Shown: piece by piece, positions 3,642 through 26,484 of the stretch
How the letters are laid out: every line of letters starts with the position of its first letter
Position numbering within the stretch: the first letter of the stretch is position 1
From: an uncultured Lachnospiraceae bacterium
GTDB lineage: Bacteria; Bacillota; Clostridia; Lachnospirales; Lachnospiraceae
Direction of reading: 5' to 3'
Assembly (NCBI GenBank): GCA_946623875.1
Contig: CAMORO010000010.1
Coordinates: forward strand, 1-45,817
Length of the DNA stretch: 45,817 nucleotides
Translations under genes and position numbers: made by a program
The notes under the pieces: generated by a model
The model's database searches: none
What the model was told of the DNA's origin: nothing
What the model saw: the letters and a program-made list of their open reading frames with translations, nothing else

Positions 3642-3703
3642 TGGATAATCCTCATAAATATGTCCTGTCCGTTCAATGTTGCAAAAGGCTTGAAAACTTC
3701 TGA

Positions 3704-3788: not shown

Positions 3789-3870
3789 GCGGATGTGGTG
3801 GAATTGGCAGACACGTAAGGTTTAGGTCCTTATGTCGCAAGATGTGCGGGTTCGAGTCCCGCCATCCGCA
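3789..3870 (+). tRNA. tRNA-Leu (anticodon UAG)
   Basis: An 82-base leucine tRNA. The acceptor arm is GCGGATG pairing with CATCCGC, followed by discriminator A. The anticodon stem is TAAGG/CCTTA around a loop TTTAGGT, giving anticodon UAG at 3823-3825. A long class II variable arm follows, and the T arm reads GCGGGTTCGAGTCCCGC. CCA is not encoded. The first pel gene starts 53 bases further on. Confidence 0.95.
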
Positions 3871-3923
3871 CTCGTTCTTAATCACATTTATGAGGAATTT
3901 ATAAAGGAATCCGGTCAGTACAG

Positions 3924-6122
3924 ATGAATTACGATAACAGCAGTCAGGATCAGCCTGCCTGCGTTTTGTTGTGCGGAAAGGTGGATCCGCTTGAATACGA
4001 AACGATAAGACAGGTTGCCCGTTTTTATAATGTGATAATAACCGGCGAAAGCCTTAATTCGGATATTCTCAGAAGAAAAGTATCAAGAAAGATACATATT
4101 TACAGGGAAGAACCCACATCGGAAAACTTTTCCAAGCTTATCTATTCCTTTTCGCCGGATGTAATATGGTATTTTTCGGGATATATAGACGGTGGGAACG
4201 GACTTGACAATGAGAATAAGAAGCTTGAGGCTCTTGTTGAGTGCTGTAAGGTCAATGATATCAAAAAGCTTGTAGTCATTTCTTCGATAAACAGCCTGAA
4301 CTACACTAAGACTTTGCAAAGACCCGGTATGAACGAAGCGTTCGTAAAGGATGAGGGCGTACCCCGATATGTAACCCAGACCGCACATGACTGTGCGGCT
4401 TTTGAGGAACTGGTTGATTACGCGACTTCGAAAAATAACATTAAGACCGTATTGTTAAGAGTCCCGTTTATTACCGGCAGGACCAATAGTACCAGTTATC
4501 TTGGCAGTCTTTTTTCGCAGATGATCAATAAGAAAAGTGTGGAATTTCCATACAATGAGAGGCAGCTAATAGATTTTCTTTCGACGGAAGATCTGATCAA
4601 GCTGCTTATTTCGGTTACGGAAGAAACATTGGATGAAGCTTCGAAATACACGGTATTCAGCGGATATGACCACAGATACGGGGAGCTCGGTGAGAGCCTT
4701 GTACGCTGTGACCCATCGGTGACAGTGAAGTACGAGAGGCCTTCGGTTTATGAGATAGACACGGATAAAGAAAGCGAGAGCAGGCGGCTTAGAGTGAACT
4801 ACGGCTTCATTGCAAGAGATGACGTTCTGCGTGATATTGAAGCTTCATATGAAGCATATAAAAGGGCGGCAGGTCACGTGTCTCCGTTCAGAGAGAAGCT
4901 GCAGGGTCTTCTTGCGAGGCTTACCGGTAAGACGGTAAAAGCAGCAGAGCTTGTGATACTTTTTGTGTTAGTGCAGGTGCTGTTAAGATATACATCCGAT
5001 TCCGTGTATTTCAGATATGTCGACTTAAGGCTTTTTTATGTCGTGATAATGGGTGTTACCCACGGTATGCTTACAGGAATGACTGCCGGGGTACTTGAGT
5101 GTATCTCTCTCATATTCGAATATGCAGCTACCGGAGTCACGGGTACAATGCTGTTTTATAACGTGGATTACTGGCTGCCGTTTGCGATATATATAATGAC
5201 CGGATCGATAACGGGATATCTTACGAGCACAAGGGAGAACAAGCTGAAGTTCATGGAGGAGGAATCCTTTGCGTTACAGGATAAGTATCTTTTCCTCAAT
5301 GATGTTTACATGTCTGTCATAGACAATAAAGAAGAGTACAAGAGACAGATACTGGGGTATCAGGACAGCTTCGGCAAGATATTTGAAACGGTCGAGAAGC
5401 TGGACAGTTCCATGCCGGCAGATATATTCATGAACGGCGTTGATACACTTGAACGCATACTTAACAATCACAGTATTGCGATATATACGATGGATGATTA
5501 TCAGAAATACCTTCGTCTTGTGGCATGCTCACGGGAGATGAGCAATAAGCTTACCAATTCGGTCAGCATAGAGGATTTCCGGATAATATACGATACTCTT
5601 CTTAACAGTGAAACCTGGAAAAATACGGAATTCATTGAGGGTCTTCCGGCTTATGCCTACGGGATAGTCGAGAACAGACTTGTCCGCCTTATGATAGTTG
5701 TCTTTGATGCATCGCCGGAACAGCTGGGTCTGTATTACATGAATCTCTTTACGATCATGTGTAACCTTATAAAGGTATCCTTTAAAAGAGCCCTTGAATA
5801 TCAGGAAGCCATCGAGGATGAAAAGTTCTGTAAGGGAACGGAAATACTGCTTCCCGAATATTTTGAGAAAGAACTTGATTCGCAGCGCCGTATGGCAGAT
5901 GCAGGTGTGGCAAGCTATATACTGATAGAGATCGTTGCCGGGGATGTCATGACTTTTGACAGGCTGATCAGGGGTCTTATCAGACACAGTGACTATGCCG
6001 GTATCGGAACGGACGGTAAGCCGTATGTTCTGTTCACACAGACCACGAGAGATATCTTTGAAGTAGTGGGAAAAAGACTTAAGGAGCACGAAGTTGAGTA
6101 TATCATGGTGGAGGGTATGTAG
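3924..6122 (+). CDS. pelD: PelD-like c-di-GMP receptor with N-terminal SDR domain
   Basis: Inner-membrane regulator of Pel-type exopolysaccharide synthesis, 732 residues. Residues about 10-310 resemble an extended short-chain dehydrogenase/epimerase. The glycine-rich nucleotide loop and the YxxxK catalytic pair are not recognisable, so it is probably inactive. Residues about 343-430 hold roughly four membrane segments, followed by a GAF-like domain (about 470-620) and a degenerate GGDEF domain. In that last domain GGDEF is replaced by TDGKP (696-700), but the RxxD inhibitory-site motif is kept as RHSD at 687-690, exactly five residues upstream. That is the known PelD arrangement for binding c-di-GMP without making it. 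The AAGGA box lies about 15 bases before the ATG, an unusually long spacing. Membrane topology plus order with pelE, pelF and pelG supports the call. Confidence 0.85.
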   Translation: MNYDNSSQDQPACVLLCGKVDPLEYETIRQVARFYNVIITGESLNSDILRRKVSRKIHIYREEPTSENFSKLIYSFSPDVIWYFSGYIDGGNGLDNENKKLEALVECCKVNDIKKLVVISSINSLNYTKTLQRPGMNEAFVKDEGVPRYVTQTAHDCAAFEELVDYATSKNNIKTVLLRVPFITGRTNSTSYLGSLFSQMINKKSVEFPYNERQLIDFLSTEDLIKLLISVTEETLDEASKYTVFSGYDHRYGELGESLVRCDPSVTVKYERPSVYEIDTDKESESRRLRVNYGFIARDDVLRDIEASYEAYKRAAGHVSPFREKLQGLLARLTGKTVKAAELVILFVLVQVLLRYTSDSVYFRYVDLRLFYVVIMGVTHGMLTGMTAGVLECISLIFEYAATGVTGTMLFYNVDYWLPFAIYIMTGSITGYLTSTRENKLKFMEEESFALQDKYLFLNDVYMSVIDNKEEYKRQILGYQDSFGKIFETVEKLDSSMPADIFMNGVDTLERILNNHSIAIYTMDDYQKYLRLVACSREMSNKLTNSVSIEDFRIIYDTLLNSETWKNTEFIEGLPAYAYGIVENRLVRLMIVVFDASPEQLGLYYMNLFTIMCNLIKVSFKRALEYQEAIEDEKFCKGTEILLPEYFEKELDSQRRMADAGVASYILIEIVAGDVMTFDRLIRGLIRHSDYAGIGTDGKPYVLFTQTTRDIFEVVGKRLKEHEVEYIMVEGM

Positions 6123-6125
6123 ATT

Positions 6126-7157
6126 ATGGGCAAGCTGATCCTGATCATTCTTATCATACATATCCTTGTATGTCTGATCCTCCTGGTCTTACGGATACTA
6201 AAGCTTATAAAATGCGAATACATAACAATATTTATTGCCTTCCCGATACCTGTATTCGGAGAGATCATGCTCTTGAGAAAGAGATATTCCGACAGGCATT
6301 CCGACAGACTGGCGGATGAGATCGATATAGTAAGACCTGTTGCCGAAGAAAACAAGAGAAGCATAGTGGTGGATCAGGATAATAAGGAGATAATCCCACT
6401 TTCGGAGGCATTGGTGATAAATGATGCTCCCACTCGTAAGGAGATAATGATGGATATCCTTTACAATGTGAACCGGAGTATCATAGTTGATGATGATGAA
6501 TTAAAGGAGAAAGCGGTTCCTCTGGAGGAGGCTCTGGTCATAAATGATGTCCCCACAAGACGTAATCTTATAATGGATGTACTGTATACGGATCCGGGGG
6601 ATTATGTTGCACAGCTTAACAATGCAAAGGAAAACTCGGATACCGAGGTTGTGCATTATGCGGCGACCGCACTTGCCGAAATACAGAAGGATTTTGATAT
6701 ACAGTTTCAGGATATCATGAAACGCAGACAGCTTGATCCCAAGGATAGGGAGATCGACAATGAGTACCAGATCCTTCTTGAAAACTATATATCCAGCGGC
6801 CTGCTTGAAGGAGATGCTCTGAGGAGCCAGCTTCTTAACTATTCGAAGCTTCTTGCACGCAGGCTTGAAGATGAAGCTACAAGGGGAAGATGGTCTCTGA
6901 TAAACAAGAAGGCCGATGCGGATCTTAAGCTCAGGGATATAAAGGAGCTTGACAGGGACATAGAATATATGGAGGAGCGCTGGCCGTTAAGAGAGAAGAT
7001 GTATGTGTATAAGATACAGAGTGCCATACTTAAAAAAGACACTAAAAGCATAAGAAGTACATTTGACCGGATTAAGAGGAATAATGTGCATATGTCGCTT
7101 GAGCTGAAGAGCATCGCGAGATTTTGGAATGTAGATACAGAGGGCGCGGATGTTTAA
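6126..7157 (+). CDS. pelE: PelE-like membrane protein with duplicated motif
   Basis: Membrane-anchored helical protein of 343 residues in the position of pelE. Two N-terminal membrane helices (about 3-24 and 32-50) precede a charged, mostly helical cytosolic part. Two adjacent units of about 39 residues (78-116 and 117-156) share RSIxVD, then PLxEALVINDxPTR and MDxLY. The rest (about 160-343) is TPR-like, which fits PelE as a scaffold in the Pel synthase complex. The gene starts three bases after pelD, with its GGAGG box inside the end of pelD, and overlaps the next gene by eight bases, so translation is probably coupled. The assignment rests on position, topology and resemblance rather than on a catalytic motif. 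Confidence 0.72.
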   Translation: MGKLILIILIIHILVCLILLVLRILKLIKCEYITIFIAFPIPVFGEIMLLRKRYSDRHSDRLADEIDIVRPVAEENKRSIVVDQDNKEIIPLSEALVINDAPTRKEIMMDILYNVNRSIIVDDDELKEKAVPLEEALVINDVPTRRNLIMDVLYTDPGDYVAQLNNAKENSDTEVVHYAATALAEIQKDFDIQFQDIMKRRQLDPKDREIDNEYQILLENYISSGLLEGDALRSQLLNYSKLLARRLEDEATRGRWSLINKKADADLKLRDIKELDRDIEYMEERWPLREKMYVYKIQSAILKKDTKSIRSTFDRIKRNNVHMSLELKSIARFWNVDTEGADV

Positions 7158-9024
7158 GCTGTTTCGTAAAAAAAAGGTACGTGAACTGAATAGTGATAAT
7201 CATGTAAGCCTTGGAGGTGTGTATCTGATCGGCGGGCTTTTCTGTATGCTTATGATCGTTCTTATAGCTGTACAGATGAATGTAAGATATTCCCTGCGCG
7301 AGACGAGTATAGGCCTTGAAGAAAAGGAAAGTCTGATAAGGCTTAAGGAAGAAGTGGAAAACGGCGAAAACAGGGGAGCGAAGATCCTTCTTGTAAACGA
7401 GGAGGATGATGCCACAAGTACGAAGGCCTTTAAGATATTTTCTGTCATACTTGATCAGATGAAGGAGCCGTATGATGTTATCGAACCGGCTGATTTCGAT
7501 ATGGCTGATTTTGACAGATATGAAACTATAATACTTGCGATCACACATTATCCGCTGCTTACGGGCAATATTTCATATCTTAAGGGCTGGGTGCGTGACG
7601 GAGGTAATCTCATGATAGCCTATCCGCCCGAAGGTTCGGGGAGCTTTCAGACGCTGTATGAGCTGCTGGGAATTAAGGACAGCGGCGAGGTGACTTACGT
7701 AAAGGGAGTTCATTTCAACAAACCTTTTATGATAGGCGGGAGCCTTAAGGATTATGATATCATAGACGCCTATGAATCATCCCTCGGTCTGTCATTGTAT
7801 GATGACTGTGATGTATATATGCAGTCCGATGATGATTATCCGGTACCTTTGATATGGAGAAGAAATGTCGGCAGCGGTACGGTGGTTTTCGATAATTTCG
7901 GAATAATGGAGAAGGCTTACAGGGGAATACACTGTGCCGCCTTCAGCCTTTTGTCGGATTATTGTGTCTATCCTGTCATTAACGGCTCAGCATTTTATAT
8001 AGATGATTTTCCGGCACCTGTACCCGAAGGGGATGCCACTTATATAACAAGGGATTACAACATTTCGGTTTCCGATTTCTATTCAAGGATATGGTGGACG
8101 GATATACATGAACTGGCAAAAGAATACGGTATCAGGTATACAGGTCTTGTGATAGAGAATTACAACGATCAGGTGAGCGGAGAGTTTAAAAGAAATACGG
8201 AGACAAACAGATTCCTGTATTTCGGAAATATGATCCTTAAGCTCGGCGGTGAGATAGGTATCCACGGTTACAATCACATGCCCCTTGTTCTTGAGAACTT
8301 TGATTACAAGGATCAGTATGATTCCTATATACAGTGGCCGTCTACAGAGGATATGAGGAATTCGCTTGACGAGGTGTTTGATTTCACACATAACCTTTTC
8401 AAGGATCAGGAGCTTAAGGTATATGTGCCTCCTTCCAATGTGCTGTCAGAAGAGGGACGAAGCCTTCTTGCCGATACTTCAATAAGCTCACTAGCCTCTG
8501 TTTATCTGTCGACAGATATGGCTTACGAGCAGGAATTTGATATATCAGCAGAGGATGGGATCATTAATACTCCCCGAATAACATCCGGCTGTATCATAGA
8601 CGAGTACATGGAGCTGGCCGCTCTGTCAGAGCTTAATTTCCATTATGTGAATACTCATTTCATCCATCCTGATGATGTGCTTGATGAGGACCGCGGTGCC
8701 GAGATCGGATGGGAGAGGATGTACGGTAATCTTAAGGGATATATGAAATGGCTGCACGAGGGCTGTCCCGATATAAGAAATCTTACGGGATCCGAACTGG
8801 CGGGAGCGGTTCTTCGTTACGACCTGCTCAGGCTTGACAGGACAGATACGGATAGCGGGGTTAAGCTTGACATAGACGGTTATGATGATGAAGCGTGGAT
8901 GCTTCTTCGTATAAACGACGGCAGAAAGATAAGCACAGTCAAAGGCGGAGGATATAAGGAGGCAGCCGAGGATCTGTATCTTATAGAATGCAGGGATGAG
9001 GCTGTTGAGATCGTGTTCGAATAA
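7150..9024 (+). CDS. pelA: DUF2194 polysaccharide deacetylase (Gram-positive PelA-type)
   Basis: Predicted membrane-anchored polysaccharide deacetylase, 624 residues. An N-terminal cytosolic stretch and one membrane helix (about 22-42) place the rest outside the cell. Residues about 75-275 look like a flavodoxin/ThuA-like alpha-beta region. A CE4-like deacetylase domain follows, with the Asp-Asp metal/catalytic motif at 285-286 (YIDDFPAP) and the zinc-binding HxxxH at 372-376 (HGYNH). A VPPSN motif near 425 probably corresponds to a later CE4 motif. In known Gram-positive Pel clusters a DUF2194 protein does the deacetylation done by the PelA C-terminal domain in Pseudomonas. No hydrolase domain is fused here. 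It overlaps the pelE-like gene by eight bases. Confidence 0.82.
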   Translation: MFKLFRKKKVRELNSDNHVSLGGVYLIGGLFCMLMIVLIAVQMNVRYSLRETSIGLEEKESLIRLKEEVENGENRGAKILLVNEEDDATSTKAFKIFSVILDQMKEPYDVIEPADFDMADFDRYETIILAITHYPLLTGNISYLKGWVRDGGNLMIAYPPEGSGSFQTLYELLGIKDSGEVTYVKGVHFNKPFMIGGSLKDYDIIDAYESSLGLSLYDDCDVYMQSDDDYPVPLIWRRNVGSGTVVFDNFGIMEKAYRGIHCAAFSLLSDYCVYPVINGSAFYIDDFPAPVPEGDATYITRDYNISVSDFYSRIWWTDIHELAKEYGIRYTGLVIENYNDQVSGEFKRNTETNRFLYFGNMILKLGGEIGIHGYNHMPLVLENFDYKDQYDSYIQWPSTEDMRNSLDEVFDFTHNLFKDQELKVYVPPSNVLSEEGRSLLADTSISSLASVYLSTDMAYEQEFDISAEDGIINTPRITSGCIIDEYMELAALSELNFHYVNTHFIHPDDVLDEDRGAEIGWERMYGNLKGYMKWLHEGCPDIRNLTGSELAGAVLRYDLLRLDRTDTDSGVKLDIDGYDDEAWMLLRINDGRKISTVKGGGYKEAAEDLYLIECRDEAVEIVFE

Positions 9025-9072
9025 CCGGACGGTCCGCAAGGCGCAAGGCAAGTCATTAATGCGAGGTACTAA

Positions 9073-10488
9073 ATGAGGATATGTGTTATCTTGGAGGGAT
9101 GCTATCCGTACGTTACGGGTGGAGTCTCCTATTGGATACATCAGTATATGAAGGCAATGCCGCAGCATGAGTTCGTTATATGGGCGATCGGGGCCAATTC
9201 ATCCCTTAAGGGCCGGTTCAAATATACGCTCCCCGATAATGTGGTAGAGGTTAAGGAAGTATTTCTGGAGGATGCCCTTAAGAAGACGGGCAATCATAAG
9301 AAGTACAAGTTCTCGAAAGAGGAGATAATGACGCTCAGGGATCTTATCGACTGTGACAGGCCAGACTGGGAGATGCTGTTTAAGATGTATGCGGACAACA
9401 ATGTGGATCCGCTTTCGTTTCTCATGAGCAAGGAATTTCTGGACATACTTACCGGAATATGTGAGGACGAATATACCTATACCGCGTTTTCCGATTTCTT
9501 CCATACGATACGCTCGATGTTTCTTCCGATACTGTATATACTGCATGCCGAGGTTCCCAAGGCCGATATCTATCATTCGATAGCGACCGGCTACAGCGGT
9601 ATCCTTGCCCGCCTTGGAAGCTACAAGTATCATGTGCCTTATATGATAACCGAACACGGCATATATACACGTGAACGGGAAGAGGAGATCATAAGAGCCA
9701 AATGGGTCATGCCCGCATTCAAGAAATTCTGGGTCCGGTTCTTTTACATGCTGTCTGCGGGAGCATATGAAAATGCTTCCATGATAACAAGCCTGTATGC
9801 GGGTGCCAGACGGATACAGATAGATATGGGGTGCGATCCGGATAAATGTGTCTACATAGGAAACGGGATCCATTATGAGCGCTTCGGGGACATTCCCCAG
9901 AAGAAGTCAAACGGTTTCGTGGATATCGGAGCGATCCTCAGGATAGCCCCTATAAAGGATGTCAAGACAATGATCTACGCCTTTGCGGGAGCAAAGGAGA
10001 GAGTGGAAAATGCAAGGCTGTTCATAGCGGGTCCGGAGGATGATAAGGAGTATGCGAAGGAATGCTATGATCTTGTTGAGCGTCTCGGAGTTAAGGATAT
10101 AACCTTTATGGGCTCGATAGATGTAGTTGAGCGTATGAAGGATTTTGATTTCACGGTTCTTTCCAGTATTTCCGAGGGTATGCCGCTGTCGGTGCTTGAA
10201 TCCTTCGCATCCGGCAGACCCTGTGTGACTACGGATGTGGGGAATTGCAAGGAGCTTATAAACGGGGTTGCCGAAGATGACGATCTTGGAAGCGCCGGAC
10301 TGTGTGTGCCTCCGATGGATATCCCGGCACTTGCCAATGCTTTTGTAGTAATGTGCAATCATCCGGAGAAAAGATATAAGATGGGTATGACCGCAAGAGA
10401 ACGCGTGCGCAGGTATTTTATGCACGAGGATATGATACGTAAGTATCTTGAGGTATATGATGAGGTGTTCAGGAAATGGCAGGGATAG
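9073..10488 (+). CDS. pelF: PelF family GT4 glycosyltransferase
   Basis: Cytosolic retaining glycosyltransferase of family GT4, 471 residues, strongly PelF-like. The N-terminus (CVILEGCYPYVTGGVSYW) is the characteristic PelF start, and the C-terminal Rossmann half contains the EX7E donor-binding motif at 368-376 (EGMPLSVLE). PelF uses UDP-GlcNAc/UDP-GalNAc-type donors to polymerise the Pel polymer. The sugar specificity here is inferred from the family only. A GAGG box seven bases before the ATG fixes the start. A 48-base gap precedes it, the widest inside the pel core, and its 3' end overlaps pelG by 13 bases. Confidence 0.93.
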   Translation: MRICVILEGCYPYVTGGVSYWIHQYMKAMPQHEFVIWAIGANSSLKGRFKYTLPDNVVEVKEVFLEDALKKTGNHKKYKFSKEEIMTLRDLIDCDRPDWEMLFKMYADNNVDPLSFLMSKEFLDILTGICEDEYTYTAFSDFFHTIRSMFLPILYILHAEVPKADIYHSIATGYSGILARLGSYKYHVPYMITEHGIYTREREEEIIRAKWVMPAFKKFWVRFFYMLSAGAYENASMITSLYAGARRIQIDMGCDPDKCVYIGNGIHYERFGDIPQKKSNGFVDIGAILRIAPIKDVKTMIYAFAGAKERVENARLFIAGPEDDKEYAKECYDLVERLGVKDITFMGSIDVVERMKDFDFTVLSSISEGMPLSVLESFASGRPCVTTDVGNCKELINGVAEDDDLGSAGLCVPPMDIPALANAFVVMCNHPEKRYKMGMTARERVRRYFMHEDMIRKYLEVYDEVFRKWQG

Positions 10489-11999
10489 GCTTCAGCCTTA
10501 AGAAGCTGTTCAAACAAAAGGGAATACTTAATCTCTGTAAAGCATACGGTTATTCGGGTATAGTCACGATAGGGCCGATGCTGCTCGGTATAGTTCTGCT
10601 TGTCGGGATGGCCTTTGTTGCCCGTATGGCAGGTCTGTCCGATCACGACAGGGAGCTCCTTAACTGTATGCTCACATACAGTCTTTTGGTGTCTCTGCTT
10701 GTGACCAACTGGTTCAATATGGTGGTGACAAGGTTCGTATCGGATATGCTGTATGAGGATATGGACGAGAAGGTGATGCCGTCATTCCTTGGCGCTGTAT
10801 CCATTGAGCTTGTCATCTGCTTCGTCTTCTACGGGATATTCCTGCTGTTTTCGGGAGCGACACTTGTGCAGGGCATCCTGTGTCTGTGGTTTTCAATGGT
10901 CCTGATAGTTGTATGGACCCAGATGATATACATGACTGCTCTTAAGGATTACCAGGGAATAATACTTACCTTTGCAATCTCGCTGATGATAGGTTTCCTG
11001 CTTGCGCTGATACTTGTGCTCATAGGCAGAGGCTCTCTTGAGAGCTTTCTGTTCTGTATGATAATCGCGTACGGACTGCTTGCTGTAAGACAGTTCAAGC
11101 TTATGCTCGATTATTTTCCGCTGAGCAAAGGAAGCCATTTTTCCTTTCTTGCATGGTTTGACAAATATCCGTCACTTGCCATAGCGGGAGGAATGGTCGG
11201 AACGGGACTGTTCTCACACATAGTCATTATGTATTTCGGTCCGTTAAGAGTTCAGGTGGAGGGACTGTTCTACGGAGCTCCCGAATATGATGTTCCGGCA
11301 CTTGTAGCCTTCCTTTCGCTGCTTATAACCACGGTAAGCTTCGTTGTTTCCGTGGAAGTGAATTTCTATCCCAAATACAGTAATTACTACGGACTGTTCG
11401 GTGATAAGGGTGCCATTAAGGATATCAGGCTCGCCGGAAGGGAGATGCTTGATGTATTGAGGCGTGAGCTTACTTACCTTGGCTGCAAACAGTTGTTTAC
11501 CACCATTCTGTTCGTGGTTATCGGACCTGTTGTGATCGAGCATTTCATACCCGGAATGAGCTCGCTGTCAATGACGGTGTTCAGGTTTTTGTGTGTCGGT
11601 TACGGGACATATGCCATAGCCAATTCGCTGATGCTGATACAGCTCTATTTTGAGGATTACAAGGGTGCCATGCTCGGGACAACTGCATTTGCGGTAATTT
11701 CATCCGTACTGAACATATGGCAGATATTAAAGGGCGATGTTTATTATTTCGGTACCGGATTTTTCGCCGGAGCCGTGGTGTTCTATTTCTGCGCTCTTAT
11801 AAGGCTTGAATGGTATACGGGCAGGCTGCCGTATTTCCTGCTGGCTCGCCAGAACCTTGTTCCCGATAAGGAGAAGGGGTTCTTCACCGCCATAAGCAGG
11901 ACTCTTGATGAACGTTACCAAAGGATGGTGGAAAGGGAAGATGCCCGGATTGCCGACAAAGCCGGCGAAATGTTGGAAAAGGAGGGGCTTAAGCAATGA
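10476..11999 (+). CDS. pelG: PelG family polysaccharide transporter
   Basis: Polytopic membrane protein of 507 residues with about 12 helices. It starts with the family-typical MAGIGFSLKKLF segment. PelG belongs to the MATE/MOP-like superfamily and is thought to move the Pel polymer across the cytoplasmic membrane together with PelD, PelE and PelF. The start lies 13 bases inside pelF and has a GAGGTG box. The final codon region overlaps the next gene as ATGA, so the CotH gene is tied to the pel core by translational coupling. No outer-membrane PelB or PelC is present, as expected for a monoderm cell. Confidence 0.93.
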   Translation: MAGIGFSLKKLFKQKGILNLCKAYGYSGIVTIGPMLLGIVLLVGMAFVARMAGLSDHDRELLNCMLTYSLLVSLLVTNWFNMVVTRFVSDMLYEDMDEKVMPSFLGAVSIELVICFVFYGIFLLFSGATLVQGILCLWFSMVLIVVWTQMIYMTALKDYQGIILTFAISLMIGFLLALILVLIGRGSLESFLFCMIIAYGLLAVRQFKLMLDYFPLSKGSHFSFLAWFDKYPSLAIAGGMVGTGLFSHIVIMYFGPLRVQVEGLFYGAPEYDVPALVAFLSLLITTVSFVVSVEVNFYPKYSNYYGLFGDKGAIKDIRLAGREMLDVLRRELTYLGCKQLFTTILFVVIGPVVIEHFIPGMSSLSMTVFRFLCVGYGTYAIANSLMLIQLYFEDYKGAMLGTTAFAVISSVLNIWQILKGDVYYFGTGFFAGAVVFYFCALIRLEWYTGRLPYFLLARQNLVPDKEKGFFTAISRTLDERYQRMVEREDARIADKAGEMLEKEGLKQ

Positions 12000-13888
12000 A
12001 GCTGTCAGTAAGGATAAGCTGTCTGTTCATTGTGCTTTCCCTCTTATTTACGATGCAGGGCTGCAGCGGAAAGAAAGAGGTGAACGGACCGGCTGAAAAA
12101 ACGGAGGAAGCCGGTAATGAGCCCGAGGTAAAAAAGGTCGATAAGGCCGTAAAGGAAGAAAGCAATATTACAGATGACAAGAGAATATACAGCGGCGATG
12201 ATGATTCGTCGGTCATAACCATGTATCTGAATGTGAGCAGGGGTAATTACGCTGATGGGAGCGATCATTCCTGGGATGAGATAAATACCTATTCGGCCTA
12301 TGATTATGAAAAAATGGGCGTGGACCGTTACAAGGTTGAAGGTATCCTTAATATAGATGAGACCGGAGAAGGTATCAATGAGAATTCCTTCGGATACGGT
12401 GAAACCGTCCCTAACGTATCGGTACAGGTAAGGGGACAGACCTCATCAAGATCCGACCAGAAAAATTACAAAATAAGGATCAAGGATGGAAGGGGAGAAT
12501 TCAGGGGACAGAGGACACTTAACCTGAACAAGCACAAGAACGATCCATACCGGTTCCTGAACAAGCTGTCGTATGATCTTCTTGAGCCGGTTCCGCAGCT
12601 TATAGGAGGAAGAACGCAGTTCGTACATCTGTATGTTAAGGACAGTACCGGTTCGGTGTCAGTAAACGCCGTACCTGAAGAGGCGTCAGAGAATGCCGTA
12701 CCTGAAGAGGTATCGGGAAACGGCATCGGGACGCAGGAGGAAGGCGCATATGAGGTTGACCTGACCGGATATGAGGACTACGGCATCTATACCATGGTTG
12801 AGCAGGTGAACAGAACCTTCCTGAGAAATCACGGCCTTGATGAGAACGGACAGTTGTATAAGGTGACTTTCTTTGAGTGGGATAAGTATGAGGAGATGAT
12901 GGTGCCTTATGACGATCCGCTCTATGATGCAGATGATTACAGCAGCTATATGGAAGTGAAGGGGAATCCGGATCCTTCAAAGCTTCAGGAGGTGCTTTCA
13001 AAGGTTAACAATTATTCCGTGCCTATAGACAATATAATAGAAGATAATTTCGATGCGCAGAACCTGTGCTACTGGATGGCTTTTAACATCATGACAGGTA
13101 ATTATGATACGGGTGCGCGTAATCTGTTCCTGTACAGTCCGCTCAATTCCGAAAGATTTTACATGATCTGCTGGGATATGGATGCATCCTTCAGGACTTC
13201 CTACAATATATGGAGGGAACGCCATGACGGAGAATCCTGGGAGCAGGGAATGACCAAGTTCCTAGGTTTAAGGCTTATAAGACGTATGATGAAGGAAGAG
13301 AAATACAGGGAGATGCTGCGGGAGGCCGTAGAGGATATACATGACAATTATGTCAATAACGAAAAGGTGTCAAAGCAGGTTGATATTTACAGAGATATAG
13401 TAAAAGAGTATCTGTACAGGGATCCCGATTATGAGAATTCCCAGATGAGGACACCTGATGTATACGACACTCTCACGGAAGAGATCAAGCTGGAGGCAGA
13501 CGCCAATTACGAGGTCTTTCTTGAGAGTATGAAAAAACCATGGCCCTTTTTTGTCGGTGTTCCGACGATCGATACGGATCATAACGAAACGATCTTAAGC
13601 TGGGAGGCATCGTACGATTACAATGACAGTGAGATAACTTATGAGTATCTTCTTGCCACGGATCCGCTGTTTGAGGATGTTATAGATGAGGGACGGGGAC
13701 TTTCCGTTCCGCTTGCAAAGACCTTTGTTCTTGACCCCGGGACATACTTCCTCAGAGTTACGGCTGTTAATGAGGAGGGATATTCAATGGAGTGTTTTGA
13801 TTATTATGAGATAGACGGTTACGGCAAGAGCTACGGCTGTTACTGCTTCAAGGTAGGAAGGAACGGGCATGTCAGTCCGTATAAATAG
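11996..13888 (+). CDS. CotH-like lipoprotein 1 (predicted extracytoplasmic kinase)
   Basis: Secreted lipoprotein of 630 residues with a CotH kinase domain. A signal peptide ends in a lipobox at Cys23 (MQGC), followed by a charged linker. The CotH domain (about 75-470) contains RGQTSS followed by KNYKIRI, the LNLNKHKNDPYR segment, DYGIYTMVEQVN, and NYDTGARNLFLY followed by a WDMD motif. CotH of Bacillus spores is an atypical protein kinase, and the WDxD-type motif matches its metal-binding acidic residues. The C-terminal 110 residues look like a fibronectin type III fold. An insert of about 45 residues carries a 9-residue tandem repeat. ATGA overlap with pelG. Its substrate (protein or polysaccharide) is unknown. 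Confidence 0.85.
   Translation: MKLSVRISCLFIVLSLLFTMQGCSGKKEVNGPAEKTEEAGNEPEVKKVDKAVKEESNITDDKRIYSGDDDSSVITMYLNVSRGNYADGSDHSWDEINTYSAYDYEKMGVDRYKVEGILNIDETGEGINENSFGYGETVPNVSVQVRGQTSSRSDQKNYKIRIKDGRGEFRGQRTLNLNKHKNDPYRFLNKLSYDLLEPVPQLIGGRTQFVHLYVKDSTGSVSVNAVPEEASENAVPEEVSGNGIGTQEEGAYEVDLTGYEDYGIYTMVEQVNRTFLRNHGLDENGQLYKVTFFEWDKYEEMMVPYDDPLYDADDYSSYMEVKGNPDPSKLQEVLSKVNNYSVPIDNIIEDNFDAQNLCYWMAFNIMTGNYDTGARNLFLYSPLNSERFYMICWDMDASFRTSYNIWRERHDGESWEQGMTKFLGLRLIRRMMKEEKYREMLREAVEDIHDNYVNNEKVSKQVDIYRDIVKEYLYRDPDYENSQMRTPDVYDTLTEEIKLEADANYEVFLESMKKPWPFFVGVPTIDTDHNETILSWEASYDYNDSEITYEYLLATDPLFEDVIDEGRGLSVPLAKTFVLDPGTYFLRVTAVNEEGYSMECFDYYEIDGYGKSYGCYCFKVGRNGHVSPYK
12668..12721 (+). repeat. 27-bp tandem repeat inside CotH-like gene 1
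   Basis: Two adjacent 27-bp units (12668-12694 and 12695-12721) share GCCGTACCTGAAGAGG and encode AVPEEASEN and AVPEEVSGN. They lie in an acidic insert that the neighbouring CotH paralogue lacks. The high identity suggests recent in-frame duplication in a surface loop. Confidence 0.8.
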
Positions 13889-13902
13889 TGTATGAGGTAA
13901 AT

Positions 13903-15630
13903 ATGAATACTAAACTGAGAATACTGATAATTGCACAGGCTGTTATTATGTCCGTTCTTTTTATGGGATGTGCCGCACCTGAGCCGGGAGATACCTATGG
14001 GAAGGCATCGCCCGGTGAGAGTATCAGACCCGACGATCTTGACTCTCTCTACTCATATCCGGATGATGTGCTTGTACTGTATCTTACCGTTGGAAGAGGG
14101 AAGACAGAGGCCGGTACACATACGTGGCGTGAGATCAATTCCCATGATCTTGATTACTATGAAAAGACAGGGCAGGAGATATATGAATGCGGGGCGCTTG
14201 TACAGTTCGGAAATGAGGAAGGACCCACTTCCGACAAGTTCGGATACGGGGATGTGTCCGAGAACGCAACAGTCAGGCTTACCGGATCCAAGGCATCGGA
14301 GAAGCAGCAGAAGAGCTACCGTATAAAGATAAACAAGGGAAGCGGAAACATGGATGGCATGAAGACTCTCATACTTAACAAGAGCTTTACCGATCCCTTC
14401 AGGTTTACCGCTAAGCTCAGCTTCGATCTTATGAGGGAAACCGATGAGATGATGTCGTTAAGAACACGGTTTGTACATCTTTATGTAAGGGATGAATACG
14501 AAGGGGAGGAACTGTTTACGGATTACGGTCTCTATACAATGATGGAGCCTGTGAATAAGAAATACCTGAGTAACAGAAGTATCGATTCTACGGGAGAGCT
14601 GTATAAGCTGAATGATTTTGATTTCGCAAGGCATGAGGACGTGATCCTTAATCCTACCGATGCCGGTTACGATCAGAAGAGATTTGAAGAACTTCTGGAG
14701 AGTAAGGGCAGCAACGATCATACAAAGCTCATAAAAATGCTCGATGCGCTTAATGCATCCGGTGCATCGATAGAGGATGTGGTCGATACGTATTTCGATA
14801 AGGAGAATCTGTACAGCTTCATGGCCTTTAATATTCTTACCGACAATGTTGATACGGATACTGAGAATATGTATCTGTACAGTCCCACAGGAACCGACAG
14901 ATTCTTCATAATCCCCTGGGATCAGGACGGAGCACTGAGGAATGATTACGAACATGTAAGGGATCCCGAATATGTAAGGAACTGGGAAAGGGGTATATAT
15001 CTGTACACGGATTCGAAGCTGTTCGGAAGTATTATGAAGAGCAGACACTGTGTTGATGAACTGAGCGCATTTATTGCCAAATATCATGACGGCGTGCTAT
15101 CGGGAAACAACGTACTGAAGAAAGCGCTCAGCCTTTCATCGATAGTAAAGCCGTATGTTTATGAACTTCCCGACAGAACCTATGCAAGGGTGACGGAGAG
15201 GGAATATGATGAGCTTATCGGCCTGCTTCCCGAACAGATGGATAACAATTATTACGCATATTACGATTCGCTGGAAACGCCGTGGCCGTTTCATATTATG
15301 AAGCCGGAAAACGATGCCGGAGGTATAAGGTTTTCCTGGGAGGACTCGACTGTTCTTGAAGGAGATGTGACGTATAAGTTTGAACTGTCCGATACATGGG
15401 ACTTTGCTAACGTGATCGAAACGGCGGAAGGTCTTTCGGATACGGAATACAGTATGGATATGCTTTCCGAGGGACAGTATTTCGTAAGGGTAAGCGCGGT
15501 TTCGTCAAGCGGTCTTTCGCAGGAAGCCTATGAATTCTATAATACCGAAAAAAAGACAAGGGCAAACGGAGTTCTGTGCTTTTATGTGCTTGAGGACGGA
15601 ACGGTTGAAACACAGATTTTTGAAGAGTAG
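13903..15630 (+). CDS. CotH-like lipoprotein 2
   Basis: Second CotH-domain lipoprotein, 575 residues, a diverged paralogue of the preceding gene. The lipobox is FMGC with Cys23. The domain keeps KSYRIKI, LILNKSFTDPFR, DYGLYTMMEPVN, a DNVDTDTENMYLY segment and a WDQD motif. The RG(Q)xSS motif of paralogue 1 is replaced by TGSKAS, which may weaken nucleotide binding. A fibronectin type III-like domain again ends the protein after a WPF motif. The ATG at 13903 with a GAGGT box is preferred over a GTG at 13888 that overlaps the previous stop. The gene is 14 bases after paralogue 1 and 14 before the VTC gene. Confidence 0.83.
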   Translation: MNTKLRILIIAQAVIMSVLFMGCAAPEPGDTYGKASPGESIRPDDLDSLYSYPDDVLVLYLTVGRGKTEAGTHTWREINSHDLDYYEKTGQEIYECGALVQFGNEEGPTSDKFGYGDVSENATVRLTGSKASEKQQKSYRIKINKGSGNMDGMKTLILNKSFTDPFRFTAKLSFDLMRETDEMMSLRTRFVHLYVRDEYEGEELFTDYGLYTMMEPVNKKYLSNRSIDSTGELYKLNDFDFARHEDVILNPTDAGYDQKRFEELLESKGSNDHTKLIKMLDALNASGASIEDVVDTYFDKENLYSFMAFNILTDNVDTDTENMYLYSPTGTDRFFIIPWDQDGALRNDYEHVRDPEYVRNWERGIYLYTDSKLFGSIMKSRHCVDELSAFIAKYHDGVLSGNNVLKKALSLSSIVKPYVYELPDRTYARVTEREYDELIGLLPEQMDNNYYAYYDSLETPWPFHIMKPENDAGGIRFSWEDSTVLEGDVTYKFELSDTWDFANVIETAEGLSDTEYSMDMLSEGQYFVRVSAVSSSGLSQEAYEFYNTEKKTRANGVLCFYVLEDGTVETQIFEE

Positions 15631-15644
15631 TAAAGGACAGTGGT

Positions 15645-16391
15645 ATGATTGACAGGAACAGGATATTCAGGCATGAATGGAAATATCTTCTTTCCCGCAG
15701 TGAGGCAGAAAATCTTAAGTACAGGCTGCTGCCGGTAATGTCTGTCGACAGTCATGTTAAAGGAGACGGATACGAGATAAGGAGTCTGTATTTTGATGAT
15801 TATAAGAACACTGCATATGTACAGAAACTCATGGGGGTATATGCAAGGAAGAAATGGCGTATAAGGATATATGATTACAGTGACAGGAAGATATCCCTTG
15901 AGAGGAAAATAAAAAACGGGAACTATATATATAAGGAATCGGCCGACCTTACAAGAGATGAATTCGAAAAGATTATAGATACGGATTTCGGTTTTCTGCT
16001 GTACAGGGATGAAAACCTGTGCAGGGAGTTCTACTACGAATGTATGTGTAATGTTTTGCGTCCTAAGGTGATAGTGGATTACAGGAGGCTTCCTCTTGTC
16101 ATGAATGAAGGAACCGTACGTATCACATTCGATACAGAAGTCGCGGCGGCCATGGGAGGATTTGACATATTTGATAATACACTTCCGAAGCTTCCGGCGC
16201 AGGATCCGGATAAGCTGGTCCTGGAGGTTAAGTATACTGAATTCCTGCCTTCCGTAATAAGGAAGCTGCTGCCTGTAAACGGTCAGGAATTTGTTGCGTT
16301 TTCCAAATATGTTGCCTGTTATGAGGCCGCTCACAGCCTGACGGATCCGACCGCGGGTATCTTAAAGAGCGGCAGCGTATCTGCTTTTTAA
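15645..16391 (+). CDS. VTC domain (triphosphate tunnel) protein
   Basis: Soluble protein of 248 residues with a complete VTC/CYTH-like triphosphate tunnel domain. The expected basic and acidic tunnel residues are all visible: EWKY (11-14), SLYFDD with a following Lys61, RIRIYD (72-77), SLERKIK (84-90), Lys97, VIVDYRR (142-148), VRITFD (158-163), LEVKY (193-197) and FSKY (219-222). In eukaryotic VTC4 this fold makes polyphosphate from ATP. Related proteins hydrolyse triphosphates. No signal peptide or membrane helix, so it should act in the cytosol, probably with the DUF4956 membrane protein encoded 18 bases downstream. Polyphosphate synthesis is a family-based possibility, not a demonstrated role. 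Confidence 0.88.
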   Translation: MIDRNRIFRHEWKYLLSRSEAENLKYRLLPVMSVDSHVKGDGYEIRSLYFDDYKNTAYVQKLMGVYARKKWRIRIYDYSDRKISLERKIKNGNYIYKESADLTRDEFEKIIDTDFGFLLYRDENLCREFYYECMCNVLRPKVIVDYRRLPLVMNEGTVRITFDTEVAAAMGGFDIFDNTLPKLPAQDPDKLVLEVKYTEFLPSVIRKLLPVNGQEFVAFSKYVACYEAAHSLTDPTAGILKSGSVSAF

Positions 16392-16409
16392 ATGAAAGGA
16401 TGAGAAGAA

Positions 16410-17093
16410 ATGAGCACAAAGGATATTTTTAAAAGATCGGTACTTGAATCATTTACGGCCAATAACGGGATCACGGCTGATTTTGTCATACAGGCGGTCA
16501 TAGCAATGGTGGTGGCGATACTGCTGGGAATGCTGATATACCTGATCTATCGGAACTACTACGGTGGAGTGGTTTATTCACCTTCCTTTGCGATGACGCT
16601 TGTGGGGATGACGATCCTGACCTGTGCACTGACACTGGCAATAAGCTCCAACATAGTGATCTCTCTCGGTATGGTCGGTGCGCTGTCCATAGTAAGATAC
16701 AGGACCGCGATCAAGGATCCCATGGATCTTCTGTATCTGTTCTGGTCGATATCCATAGGTATCATAGTGGCAGCAGGCATCTATCCTCTGGCTGTGATAA
16801 CCATGATAGTAATGACGGCCCTTGTAATGTATTTCTTTAAGAAGAAGAGTTCGGGAATAATCTATATTCTTGTTGTGCATTATGAGGGTGAAGAAACTCA
16901 GGATGAGATAATAAGGCTGTTCGGAAATCAGAAGTATCAGCTCAAATCGAAGACAATGAGGAAGGGACAGGTGGAGATGACTGTCGAATTTATGTCAAGG
17001 CAGGGTAATTTCAATTTTGTTGAAAAGATCGATGCGCTTGACCGTGTCAGGGATGTAAGCCTGATCCAGTATAACGGAGAGTATAATGGATAA
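16410..17093 (+). CDS. DUF4956 membrane protein
   Basis: Membrane protein of 227 residues. About four helices lie between residues 22 and 145. The family signature GALSIVRYRTAIKDP begins at about residue 90 and puts two conserved arginines (96, 98) at a membrane boundary. A cytosolic alpha-beta domain of about 80 residues ends the protein. DUF4956 genes commonly accompany VTC-domain genes, so a joint function at the membrane is likely, but the reaction is unknown. The RBS is AAGGATGAGAAG-like. The next gene overlaps by eight bases. Confidence 0.87.
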   Translation: MSTKDIFKRSVLESFTANNGITADFVIQAVIAMVVAILLGMLIYLIYRNYYGGVVYSPSFAMTLVGMTILTCALTLAISSNIVISLGMVGALSIVRYRTAIKDPMDLLYLFWSISIGIIVAAGIYPLAVITMIVMTALVMYFFKKKSSGIIYILVVHYEGEETQDEIIRLFGNQKYQLKSKTMRKGQVEMTVEFMSRQGNFNFVEKIDALDRVRDVSLIQYNGEYNG

Positions 17094-18498
17094 AAGAAAG
17101 AGCATACTCTTACAATATGCACTGATCGTTGTCCTTGGGATCACGATAGCACTGATAATACATCATATAACCACCCGGTCGGACATGAACATAACTGCTG
17201 TATTTTCGCCCGACATGACATTGACGGACAATCCCCTTATGGGATTTGCTCCCGATGCGTCGAACGAAGCCCTGTGCAAAGGCACGGACCTTGTCTTCAT
17301 TCCGGTCACATTCGCCGAATGGGAGCCGAGGGAGGGTTTTTATGATACGGCTTCCCTGGAACGCAGATACAATATAGAAAGATGGAAAAAAGAAAATAAG
17401 CATGCAGTCATAAGGTTTATGTGTGATGTTCCGGATGCACACGATCATATGGACATTCCCAAATGGCTGTATGACATGACCGGCACCGGGGTACATTACG
17501 ATACCGGATTGGGTAAGGGCTACAGCCCGGATTATGAGGATGCGACCTTTATGCGTTATCATGAAAGGGCACTCAAGAAGCTTGCCGAGTACTGCAACAG
17601 CGACCATTTTGTGGTCTTTGTTGAGCTTGGGAGCATAGGACACTGGGGTGAATGGCATGCGACCGGAACAAACGGGAGATCGCTTATGCCGGAGCCTTCC
17701 GTTTGTGCCGATTATGCAAGGCTGTATTCCGAGAGCTTTGTGAACGCAAGACTTCTTACAAGGCGCAATTATGACTTTGCCGTAGGCGGAATGATGGGCT
17801 GTTATAATGATATGGTCGGTGCGAAAGAAGATACCGAGGAGTGGCTCGAATGGCTTGAAAACGGAGGAACACAGGAGACATCCGGGGCTGATCTTGTGCT
17901 TACAGGCATTGAATCGTACGGGAAGAAGGAGCCTGTCGGAGGGGAATTTACAAGTTCTGTTCCGATGGAAACACTTATGACTTCGCAGATGGGCGAGGTG
18001 CTCGCAATGATATCCTCATCAAACATGACCTTTATAGGCCCGATGATACCGGACTATTTATCAGGCGAAACAGCACTTGCGGCTGATTCTGTGCTGAAAA
18101 GACTGGGATATCGTATATATGTTTCCGAAATAAGGTCGCAATATGATTTTTCGGATGATATAATGGAGCTGTCGGTTACTTTTAAGAATGCCGGACGGGC
18201 GGGGTTCTTCTTTGACTGGCCGGTTACTGTGTATATCTTTGATGCAAATAAGAAACAGGTTTACTGGGAAGGCCTTGACCTTGATCTTAGAGAACTGAGC
18301 TCTGAGGATGGGATCGAAGCAGTATCAAGGATACCGGTCACCCAGGAAATAAGGGATGAATTCTATATCGGGATCTCGATAACGGATTATGACGGAAATG
18401 ATCATATAAAGCTTGCCATCGATTCGGAAGACACGGATGAAATGATAGGGAATGCTCAGATCATCTATCATTATGTGGATCCGGATACGGAAAGATGA
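17086..18498 (+). CDS. DUF4832 family protein, glycoside-hydrolase-like, membrane-anchored
   Basis: Protein of 470 residues with one N-terminal membrane helix (about 8-25) and an extracytoplasmic body. Residues about 40-345 read like a TIM-barrel glycosidase. They start with the family-typical NPLMGFAPD, and acidic residues cluster at barrel-strand ends, including Glu180 (FVELGS) and Glu189 (GHWGEWH). A C-terminal beta-sandwich follows, with text resembling the DUF4832 domain. Glycan binding or cleavage is plausible, and it could supply the hydrolase activity that is missing from the DUF2194 protein, but that is inference. It overlaps DUF4956 by eight bases and is the last tightly packed gene before a 55-base gap. 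Confidence 0.8.
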   Translation: MDKRKSILLQYALIVVLGITIALIIHHITTRSDMNITAVFSPDMTLTDNPLMGFAPDASNEALCKGTDLVFIPVTFAEWEPREGFYDTASLERRYNIERWKKENKHAVIRFMCDVPDAHDHMDIPKWLYDMTGTGVHYDTGLGKGYSPDYEDATFMRYHERALKKLAEYCNSDHFVVFVELGSIGHWGEWHATGTNGRSLMPEPSVCADYARLYSESFVNARLLTRRNYDFAVGGMMGCYNDMVGAKEDTEEWLEWLENGGTQETSGADLVLTGIESYGKKEPVGGEFTSSVPMETLMTSQMGEVLAMISSSNMTFIGPMIPDYLSGETALAADSVLKRLGYRIYVSEIRSQYDFSDDIMELSVTFKNAGRAGFFFDWPVTVYIFDANKKQVYWEGLDLDLRELSSEDGIEAVSRIPVTQEIRDEFYIGISITDYDGNDHIKLAIDSEDTDEMIGNAQIIYHYVDPDTER

Positions 18499-18553: not shown

Positions 18554-21500
18554 ATGCTGAAATGGAAAACCCGGAATATATTCTGGTTCGTGATGCTCTG
18601 CGTCAGCATGAATGTAATTGGAAGGCTTTTTGCTGTATGGCTTGAGCTGCCTGTTTGGGCCGATTCCTTCGGAACGGTGCTCTGCGCTTATGTGGGAGGG
18701 CCGGTATGCGGCGCGATAGTGGGACTTACGGGAAATCTTGCTTACAGTATGGTCGACCGGATTTCGGCAGCTTATTCCGTCACAGGTATTGCAATTGGTA
18801 TCATTGTAGGGTTTGCTGCACGAAAGAAATGGTTCGATGAGTTTTTCGGATTTATGAAGGCTGCGACCATGGCATTATTCACTGCCCTTATCGTATCTGT
18901 CCCCGTAAATATGCTCCTTGATAACGGATATACCGGTAATAAATGGGGTGACGGAGTGGTTGACTACCTTCTGGATAAAGGATGGTCCGGTCTGTTATGT
19001 TGTATAATGGGTCAGCTTGCTATCGAGTTCACTGATAAAGTGCTTACGGTCGCAGCGGTATATCTTATTGCCATTACCCGTAACAGACGCCATGGCAGGG
19101 ACAACGTTACAGGTGCGATCGGACGGGAAGGCGCAGTTGGACTTGCGATCATTTTCTGCCTCTCGCTCGGTCTTTCCGTTCCCGTCGAAGCTGCTTCGGG
19201 AACGTCAGCGGATTTGATCGATTATAATGATTATGTACAAAACGTATACAGCAGTAACAACGGTCTGCCCTGCGGTGAAGCAAATGACATCGCCCAGACA
19301 AACGACGGAGTTCTCTGGATAGGTACATATGCGGGTTTGTACCGTTATAACGGACGTGAGTTCCATTGGGTTGACAACTATGAATCCGTTAAAAATGTGA
19401 ACTGCCTTTATGTGGATGAAGAGGGACGCCTGTGGATCGGGACCAATGACAACGGACTGTCTATCGTCATACGTGAAAAGGTAGTAAATGTGCTCGATCA
19501 GGCGAGCGGTCTGCCCTCCAATTCAGTGCGGTCCATAATCCGGTCATCGGATGGATATTATTATATCGGTACTACGGCAAGCCTTCAGATACTTATGATG
19601 AACAACGGTCTGAAGATTGAAAACACGCTTGATGAGATAAACTATACGGAAAGCATTACCGCGGATGACAACGGGCATGTTGCGGCCATCTCTACGGGTG
19701 GGAAGCTTTTCCTTATGAAAGCCGGTAAGATCATAGATTCCATTAAGTCTGATGATGAGCAGGAGCTGTTCAACTGCTGTGCCTTTTCACCTGAGGGAAT
19801 TCTTATGGTGGGCACTTCCGTCAATCATATATACAGGTACGATGTTTCGGGAGACAGTTTTAAACTGCTCGACAAAATGACATGTGCCGATGTTGCAAGC
19901 ATAAATGACCTTAATTATCTGGATGACGGTACTCTTTTCATTTCTACGGACAGCGGTGTTTCATATATGGACAACAGTGGGTATCACCGTCTTAATACGA
20001 ATGATTTCAACAACTCAATTGACAATATGCTGTATGACTATCAGGGAAATCTCTGGTTTACATCTTCAAGGCTTGGTCTGCTCAGGCTGGCCAAATCACC
20101 GTTTAAGGATGTTTACGGTTCCATTGGGATGGAGCGGCGTGTTGTCAATACCATTGTCCTTTGGCAGGGGAATTACTACATTGGTACCGACAAAGGACTG
20201 GATGTGGTGGACAAAGCGTGCCGCAGGCAGATAAACAATGAACTGACAGAGGAGCTTAAAGGTAAACGCATACGCTGTATGTATGTTGATAGTGATGACC
20301 ATCTTTGGGTGTGTACCTATGGAAACGGATTGATAGAGTATGCACCCGACGGGGAATCGTGGGAATACAATGCGGACAGCGGCAGCTTTGGTAACCGCGC
20401 CAGAGTGGTGACGGGACTTTCGGATGGAACCATACTTGCGGCAGGTGATACGGGGATCAGCTATATCAGGGATCATACTATCAAACAGACCATAAAAAAT
20501 GAAGATGGTCTCATTAATTCCATGATCCTCACCATTACGGAGCAAAGTGACGGTACTATTCTTGCGGGTACGGACGGTGATGGGATTGCTGTGCTTAAGG
20601 ACGGTAAGGTAGTGGATATGATAACCCGTGAGGACGGATTGAGCAGCGGTGTGATACTGCGAACCGTCAAGGATCCGAAATCAGAGGGTGTGTTTCTGGT
20701 TACCAGTAACAGTCTGTGTTATCTTGAACCGGAAGGGGAAATCCGTATACTTGAGAAATTTCCGTATTTTAACAACTATGATATCTGGGTCAAGGATGAG
20801 GATACCCTCTTTGTAATGTCAAGTGCGGGAATATATGTGGTTGGACGTGATGAACTGGTTGCGGGCGGCGAGATGGCCTGGGAGCTTTTGGATGCAAGAA
20901 GAGGACTCGGGACTTCGCTGACTGCCAATTCATGGAACTATTACGACGGAAACGGGGAGCTGTTTCTTCCATGTGATACGGGCGTTTATATCATAGATGT
21001 CGAGAAATACAACAGTGATGTAAGATCCTACAGAATGCAGCTTGCATCGGTTCGCCTTGACGGTGTGTTACAGCCGCTTTCCCGAATGAGCGCCATCACT
21101 GTGAGACAGGGTGTCAGCAGGGTGGAACTGAATCCGGAGATATTGAACTATACCATTCAGGAGCCTAACGTTGGTTATTTCCTTGAAGGATATGATTCGC
21201 AATGGACTATTGTTCCGCAGAACAGCCTGAATAACATAATATATGTTAATCTTCCTGCGGGTAAATATGTTTTCCATCTTGCCATTTTTGACAGCGCGGG
21301 CGACCGTGTCCTTGAAGAGCGCAAGTTCGATCTTATCAAAGTGGGCGAGTTCTATGAACGCCCGGGCTTCGTTGTATATATGCTTCTGCTTTTGTCGTTT
21401 ATGCTTATCTGGTTTACCTGGCTTGCGGTACAGAAACAGCTTCATGAACAGAAGATCAAGCTGAATATGGCCAACGAAACAGTTATGGCAATAGCAAATG

Positions 21501-26446: not shown

Positions 26447-26484
26447 TAAACCCCCTCCGTATGGTTTCATTACAGAACATAAAA

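Follow-up and report, generated by a model that had tools for sequence, protein, structure and literature searches.

A conserved CotH-VTC-DUF4956 extension of a Gram-positive Pel locus, with repeated PelG-CotH fusion in relatives, suggests kinase action at the site of Pel exit

INTRODUCTION

Why should a gene cluster for the Pel polysaccharide also encode putative CotH-type kinases and a relative of the yeast VTC polyphosphate polymerase, and are these genes tied to Pel at all? The question is raised by a locus in a 45,817-nucleotide stretch of DNA, here called the window (contig CAMORO010000010.1 of assembly GCA_946623875.1), from an uncultured Lachnospiraceae bacterium whose genome is represented by 2.8 Mb in 155 contigs. 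Ten open reading frames (ORFs), all on the + strand between positions 3924 and 18498, follow one another in the order pelD, pelE, pelA (deacetylase), pelF, pelG, CotH, CotH, VTC, DUF4956, and DUF4832; their spacing ranges from -13 to +48 bases, and pelG and the first CotH gene have a common ATGA at their junction. A first-pass annotation of the window had described the close packing, the Gram-positive pel order of the first five genes, the identity of the last five, and the ATGA overlap, and all of these features were recovered. The family matches in Pfam ruled out an antisense or chance origin of the ten ORFs.

The gene content of such clusters is already known, because Whitfield et al. (2020; PMC7112168) described streptococcal and clostridial loci in which pelDEADAFG is contiguous with cotH, a polyphosphate polymerase (PPP) gene, DUF4956, and DUF4832; the accessory gene set is therefore not new. 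What is added here beyond the printed record is the frequency of the CotH, VTC, and DUF4956 trio, the existence of PelG-CotH and PelD-HD-GYP fusions, and the pairing of VTC with DUF4956 outside pel.

RESULTS

Conservation of the accessory genes downstream of pelG. An alignment of 11 PelG proteins was scanned against named genomes, and the 80 best of its 338 matches formed the sample, which therefore leans to close relatives; the nearest PelG among these 80 was that of a rumen Lachnospiraceae metagenome-assembled genome, Tb.RUG.133 (96%). Sixty-one of the 80 loci have at least 5 kb past pelG and were searched in six frames with local profiles; the gene calls in relatives rest on these profiles, which were built from sequences of the window and of the relatives. 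CotH, VTC, and DUF4956 were each found past pelG in 58 of the 61 assessable loci and all three in 57, DUF4832 was present in 47, and 30 loci carried two or more CotH genes; the Bifidobacterium catenulatum locus (L214) has a single copy each of cotH, VTC, and DUF4956. The recurrence of the trio in 57 of 61 loci exceeds chance, and the gene order was preserved across loci of the Lachnospiraceae, Oscillospiraceae, Bifidobacteriaceae, and Coriobacteriaceae.

In a class sample of 291 genomes, PelG exceeded the cut-off in 11, VTC was detected in 150, and CotH was detected in 115; at an E value of ≤0.001, PelG was matched in 13 genomes, and no PelG was seen in the stretch around one of the weak matches. 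CotH followed pelG in 8 of 11 cases, and the complete trio was found in six of the nine PelG loci whose contig ran on for more than 5 kb. VTC and CotH occurred together in 107 of the 291 genomes, CotH only in 8, VTC only in 43, and neither in 133 (Fisher P = 1.5e-33, a test that treats genomes as independent and leaves relatedness uncorrected).

Fusion of CotH to the PelG exporter. In the window, the gene for the exporter PelG (10476..11999, + strand; PF16933, 5.4e-121) is followed directly by that for CotH1, a predicted lipoprotein kinase (11996..13888, + strand; PF08757, 2.4e-54). PelG and CotH form one ORF in 14 of the 80 loci, including that of the complete Claveliimonas bilis genome (L181), and Pfam, which was run on four of the 14 ORFs, confirmed both domains in those four; another four of the 80 loci (L163, L166, L222, and L227) end too early past PelG to reveal the fusion state. 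The CotH lipoprotein signal persists internally in the PelG-CotH proteins. There is no start codon from the end of PelG to the internal lipobox in L175, and a Shine-Dalgarno-like stretch followed by an in-frame ATG lies in this interval in 4 of the 14 fusions, so internal starts are possible for those four. The distribution of fusions on the PelG tree required five changes, a figure that was the same when three rows ending just past PelG were set aside, and a single origin in one clade was rejected (p-AU, 5e-54; quick tree).

The presence of these fusions in relatives suggests that CotH acts at the site where Pel leaves the cell. Since the gene order is conserved (57/61), PelG and CotH share single frames (14/80), and a single origin of the fusion is rejected, there is strong support for the earlier proposal that the two halves of the cluster are functionally tied.

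Properties of the CotH proteins. The second CotH gene of the window (CotH2; 13888..15630, + strand; PF08757, 9.2e-54) has a GTG start and also encodes a predicted lipoprotein kinase. Both window proteins start with a lipobox-like signal, as judged by eye; CotH is predicted to lie outside the membrane because of this lipobox and of the internal lipobox in the fusions. CotH1 retains D371 and D394, and both copies keep the two conserved aspartates, which we take to be catalytic. With the CotH domain and both aspartates in place, kinase activity is predicted. All 68 first-listed CotH proteins, including those of the 14 fusions, had both aspartates; first-listed here means the earliest CotH ORF with a length of 450 residues or more in a greedy set, which in a few loci is perhaps the second gene. 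One or both were lost in 8 of 25 second CotH proteins (L162, L169, L170, L172, L175, L178, L179, and L183), so that some relatives may have an inactive CotH2; the C terminus of the window CotH2 gave a weak Ig/FN3-like match, under the Pfam cut-off. CotH1 matched the structure of the spore-coat kinase CotH (PDB 5jd9; E value, 2.6e-7), which has the CotH domain and both aspartates in common with the window proteins; these are predicted lipoproteins with exporter-fused relatives, and a spore role is not implied.

VTC and DUF4956 as a general pair. The VTC-type protein, a predicted tunnel polymerase (15645..16391, + strand; PF09359, 3.7e-39), is encoded immediately ahead of the DUF4956 membrane protein (16410..17093, + strand; PF16316, 4.3e-10). 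Sixteen charged residues (R9, E11, K13, K70, R72, R74, E86, K88, K90, K97, R148, R159, D163, E194, K196, and K221) were invariant in 37 of 37 VTC proteins taken from the 121 found, and they presumably have a role in the tunnel domain. The VTC profile matched yeast VTC4 at 1.1e-20, aligned over profile positions 3 to 171. It had been suggested in the first-pass annotation that VTC and DUF4956 make or handle polyphosphate or a nucleotide; the retained residues and the VTC4 match support the assignment of VTC as a polyphosphate polymerase, and its activity stays a prediction. The yeast VTC complex (PDB 3g3q and 8i6v, among others), which according to the available text of PMC9911596 couples polyphosphate synthesis to translocation, likewise pairs a VTC tunnel domain, whose conserved positions match, with a membrane partner; as a difference, the window VTC protein had no SPX match in Pfam. 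DUF4956 weakly resembles MgtC, under cut-offs. To our knowledge, it is not the family of the yeast VTC membrane subunit.

The association of VTC with DUF4956 extends beyond pel. Sixty VTC loci were hand-picked down the listed part of a ranking, with contig-edge entries swapped for neighbors and flanks of about 7 kb or less, and DUF4956 lay no more than 300 bases downstream of VTC in 59 of them. Within 3.5 kb, 17 of the 60 had CotH, 26 had Cthe_2159, 17 had neither, and none had both. PelG was found near none of the 60, which is not a fair rate because the recognized pel-linked entries of the list (G000:C10, G021:C15, and G052:C80) fell outside the picks. In control genomes, the DUF4956 and VTC families were both present in the same 3 of 14. 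Matches in the source genome of the window numbered one for PelG, four for VTC, and five for CotH; DUF4956 follows VTC in all four cases, and two of the VTC-DUF4956-CotH sets, on contigs C8 and C47, are separate from pel. VTC and DUF4956 make up a general pair whose surface partners are interchangeable. The deepest split of a midpoint-rooted VTC tree placed 69 Pel-linked, 16 CotH-linked, and 2 Cthe_2159-linked rows on one side and 24 Cthe_2159-linked, 3 CotH-linked, and 18 other rows on the other.

Some of these neighborhoods deserve a description of their own. Cthe_2159, which replaces CotH beside VTC-DUF4956 in 26 of the 60 loci (L067-L126), is a carbohydrate-binding protein. In L100, L111, L121, and L124, the VTC-DUF4956-CotH set is followed by a GH72-like gene (under the Pfam cut-off), a HEAT gene, and a chitin-synthase-like GT2 gene. 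The second set of the source genome, on contig C47 (L007, 332-9327), is adjoined by PPK1, Ppx/GppA, and an MBOAT acyltransferase; PPK1/Ppx was considered as a regular VTC neighbor and set aside, as it occurred in only one locus among those examined.

Pel core proteins and cyclic di-GMP (c-di-GMP) features. The contiguous pelD, pelE, deacetylase, pelF, and pelG genes constitute a Gram-positive Pel locus, identified with Pfam and NCBIfam and, for pelE (6126..7157, + strand), by position and a local profile; the product would be a GalNAc-rich Pel polymer. PelE had no significant match in Pfam or NCBIfam; the local profile also detects PelE in relatives. The deacetylase-type pelA gene (DUF2194; 7150..9024, + strand; PF09960, 2.7e-150) and the pelF glycosyltransferase gene (9073..10488, + strand; NF038011 [NCBIfam PelF], 1.6e-107; DUF3492 [Pfam], 1.9e-81) precede pelG, and a glycoside-hydrolase-type DUF4832 gene (17086..18498, + strand; PF16116, 5.3e-11), whose product has a hydrophobic N-terminal segment by eye, completes the ten.

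PelD (3924..6122, + strand) has an N-terminal epimerase-like (SDR) domain (Pfam, 5.2e-5), a DUF4118-like region under the Pfam cut-off, and a C terminus with the RxxD motif of a c-di-GMP site (R687/D690) and the later arginine R718. These three residues are retained in 71, 71, and 70 of 72 PelD proteins, respectively, and their pattern parallels R363/D366/R395 of B. cereus PelD, which have been mutated (PMC7112168); binding of c-di-GMP by the window protein is predicted. R656/D659 was dropped as a candidate site because it is not conserved. In 6 of the 80 loci (L199, L205, L207, L211, L215, and L227), PelD is preceded by a fused HD-GYP domain, with the HD-x-GK and GYP motifs intact in all six; these loci sit in a clade of seven, and no pelD was seen on the contig of the remaining row, L028.

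Extent and surroundings of the cluster. The cluster had been taken to end at 18498, but it continues with a sensor gene (18554..22210, + strand) and a Bmp/PnrA-like substrate-binding protein gene (22207..23400, + strand; PF02608, 1.2e-26) that overlaps it by 4 bases. The sensor comprises a Reg_prop beta-propeller, Y_Y_Y, and an HD-GYP phosphodiesterase domain in which the HD-x-GK and GYP motifs are present; its likely start, at 18554, is preceded by AAGGAGG and lies 55 bases past the DUF4832 gene. Two minus-strand genes for periplasmic-binding-type sensors with GGDEF, similar to each other, frame the cluster, one upstream and divergent (1737..3710) and one downstream (24590..26509). A tRNA-Leu gene (3789..3871, + strand; ARAGORN and Rfam) lies 52 bases ahead of pelD, and one of eight 10-of-12 promoter-like sites stands directly ahead of the tRNA gene (site and gene together, window 3735-3871), so the tRNA and pel genes might have a common transcript. 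Between positions 3650 and 23600, there were 23 terminator-like matches, compared with a shuffle mean of 12.6 (standard deviation, 3.0); by eye, they were mostly intragenic.

DISCUSSION

In this study, we have shown that the CotH, VTC, and DUF4956 genes past pelG form a recurrent arrangement and that CotH is repeatedly joined to the exporter itself. With respect to the available text of Whitfield et al. (PMC7112168), the window has the same core genes and the same four accessory families, contiguous with pelG, as well as the epimerase-type PelD N terminus with which the accessory set was reported to correlate; unlike the published set, it has two CotH genes, and sensor HD-GYP and Bmp genes follow. 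The S. intermedius pel cluster (SIR_1591-1594; PMC12345266, mBio 2025), as far as the available text goes, also holds CotH-, VTC-, and DUF4956-type genes; it has one CotH gene and no c-di-GMP, whereas the window has two CotH genes, the PelD RxxD motif, and c-di-GMP enzymes in or beside the cluster. In that organism, the DUF4832 protein has glycoside hydrolase activity, deletion of the CotH-type gene lowered Pel and deletion of the DUF4956-type gene raised it, either deletion reduced but did not abolish aggregation, and the text reports no comparable change in Pel or aggregation upon deletion of the VTC-type gene. The same text states that the trio is not found in synteny outside pel, a statement at odds with the two additional sets in the source genome and with the occurrence of the trio in 17 of the 60 sampled loci. 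The NELoc-2 locus of C. perfringens carries VTC, a gene annotated as tubulin-like, CotH, a gene for a 685-residue protein, HEAT, and a putative glycosyl-type gene, in the order seen in L100, L111, L121, and L124, with no pel genes in the passage concerned (PMC2879425); the tubulin-like gene, which has the position of DUF4956, is probably DUF4956.

Among the matches listed, only PMC7112168 and PMC12345266 join CotH and the Pel polysaccharide in the literature. The main text of the former, supplementary figures aside, mentions neither PelG-CotH nor PelD-HD-GYP fusions ("fusion" is absent, and the single "fused" refers to a tag), and in the main text of the latter, within the same limits, "fused" occurs once, for cloning. 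PelG-CotH appears in none of the 12 of 25 places shown from PMC7112194, which treats gene fusions in exopolysaccharide operons.

We postulate, with a probability of about 40%, that the window encodes a c-di-GMP-controlled Gram-positive Pel locus in which CotH acts as an extracytoplasmic kinase where Pel exits and VTC-DUF4956 is a polyphosphate unit at the membrane. Gene order, its conservation, the PelG-CotH fusion, the VTC-DUF4956 pairing, and the retained residues were all seen directly. By homology to published systems, PelF would polymerize and PelG would export the polymer, the DUF2194 protein would deacetylate it, and the DUF4832 protein would cut it. The kinase-fold CotH protein would be anchored to the outside of the membrane where PelG releases the polymer, and we infer that it catalyzes modification of the emerging polymer or of a polymer-bound matrix protein; the first-pass annotation had raised a possible phosphate transfer to the polymer or its protein anchors. 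VTC and DUF4956 would work as a pair at the membrane, the former making polyphosphate from ATP and the latter perhaps placing or passing it there; the polyphosphate could be the phosphate donor for CotH or could itself be a matrix polyanion.

Several observations weigh against this model, particularly where it would require strict dependence between its parts. The trio is incomplete in four of the 61 assessable loci: L234 has CotH and DUF4832 without VTC and DUF4956, L216 has VTC and DUF4956 without CotH, and the Liquorilactobacillus loci L218 and L232 lack all three genes. It is likewise missing from three of the nine class-sample PelG loci with enough contig. VTC-DUF4956 is not Pel specific (VTC was found in 150 of 291 genomes versus 11 of 291 for PelG over the cut-off), and among the 60 sampled VTC loci, 26 have Cthe_2159 instead of CotH and 17 have neither. 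VTC and DUF4956 are both absent from 8 of the 115 CotH genomes; of five strong-CotH genomes without VTC, four have CotH N termini that look secreted by eye, and the fifth was unreadable. CotH, therefore, does not always need VTC, and the candidate rule that secreted CotH is always dependent on VTC fails. Moreover, S. intermedius lacking each accessory gene still produces Pel (PMC12345266).

Some of the same evidence fits a regulatory module, an explanation we regard as doubtful, in which CotH phosphorylates the Pel machinery to set its output, a possibility raised in the available text of PMC7112168, and VTC-DUF4956 serves in phosphate or nutrient sensing. The opposite effects of the CotH-type and DUF4956-type deletions on Pel in S. 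intermedius (PMC12345266) are as such a module would have them, c-di-GMP enzymes are already in the locus, and the weak, below-cut-off likeness of DUF4956 to MgtC points the same way; however, CotH is predicted to lie outside the membrane, where most of the Pel machinery is unexposed, and the conserved residue set of VTC is intact.

It is unlikely that polyphosphate is simply the partner of the polymer, that is, that VTC-DUF4956 exports it as a matrix polyanion binding partly deacetylated, cationic Pel or other amino-sugar polymers while CotH, only loosely linked, phosphorylates surface proteins. The proximity of the pair to Cthe_2159 (26 of 60 loci) and other surface carbohydrate genes, the run of CotH, GH72-like, HEAT, and chitin-synthase-like GT2 genes in 4 of the 60, and the source-genome VTC copy beside PPK1 and Ppx/GppA would all be in keeping with such a role, but it leaves unexplained both the PelG-CotH fusion and the presence of VTC in 107 of 115 CotH genomes, and PPK1 lies beside VTC in only one of the loci examined.

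More unlikely again, in our judgment, is the most specific arrangement, a station tethered to the exporter, in which CotH, docked with PelG or joined to it in one protein, adds phosphate to the emerging Pel chain or a carrier protein and VTC-DUF4956 supplies external polyphosphate; with polyphosphate supplied outside, a secreted kinase could work without ATP. Finally, the accessory genes might be mere operon neighbors, a mobile surface-biogenesis cassette that arrived beside pel once or twice and was kept by linkage with no common chemistry, and while the grouping of Pel-linked with CotH-linked VTC (two changes; midpoint root, quick tree) and the greater abundance of the module than of pel would allow this, the order preserved in four families, the repeated PelG-CotH fusion, and the effects of deletions on Pel in S. 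intermedius (PMC12345266) make it very improbable.

Pel is a biofilm polymer, and the PelG-CotH fusions predict kinase action at the exit of its exporter, which is directly testable, and species with one fused PelG-CotH protein are good material for structural work. If the exporter-tethered station proved true, it would be a portable unit at work on other surface polymers as well. The generality of the VTC-DUF4956 pair widens the question beyond Pel to a common membrane module for phosphate chemistry.

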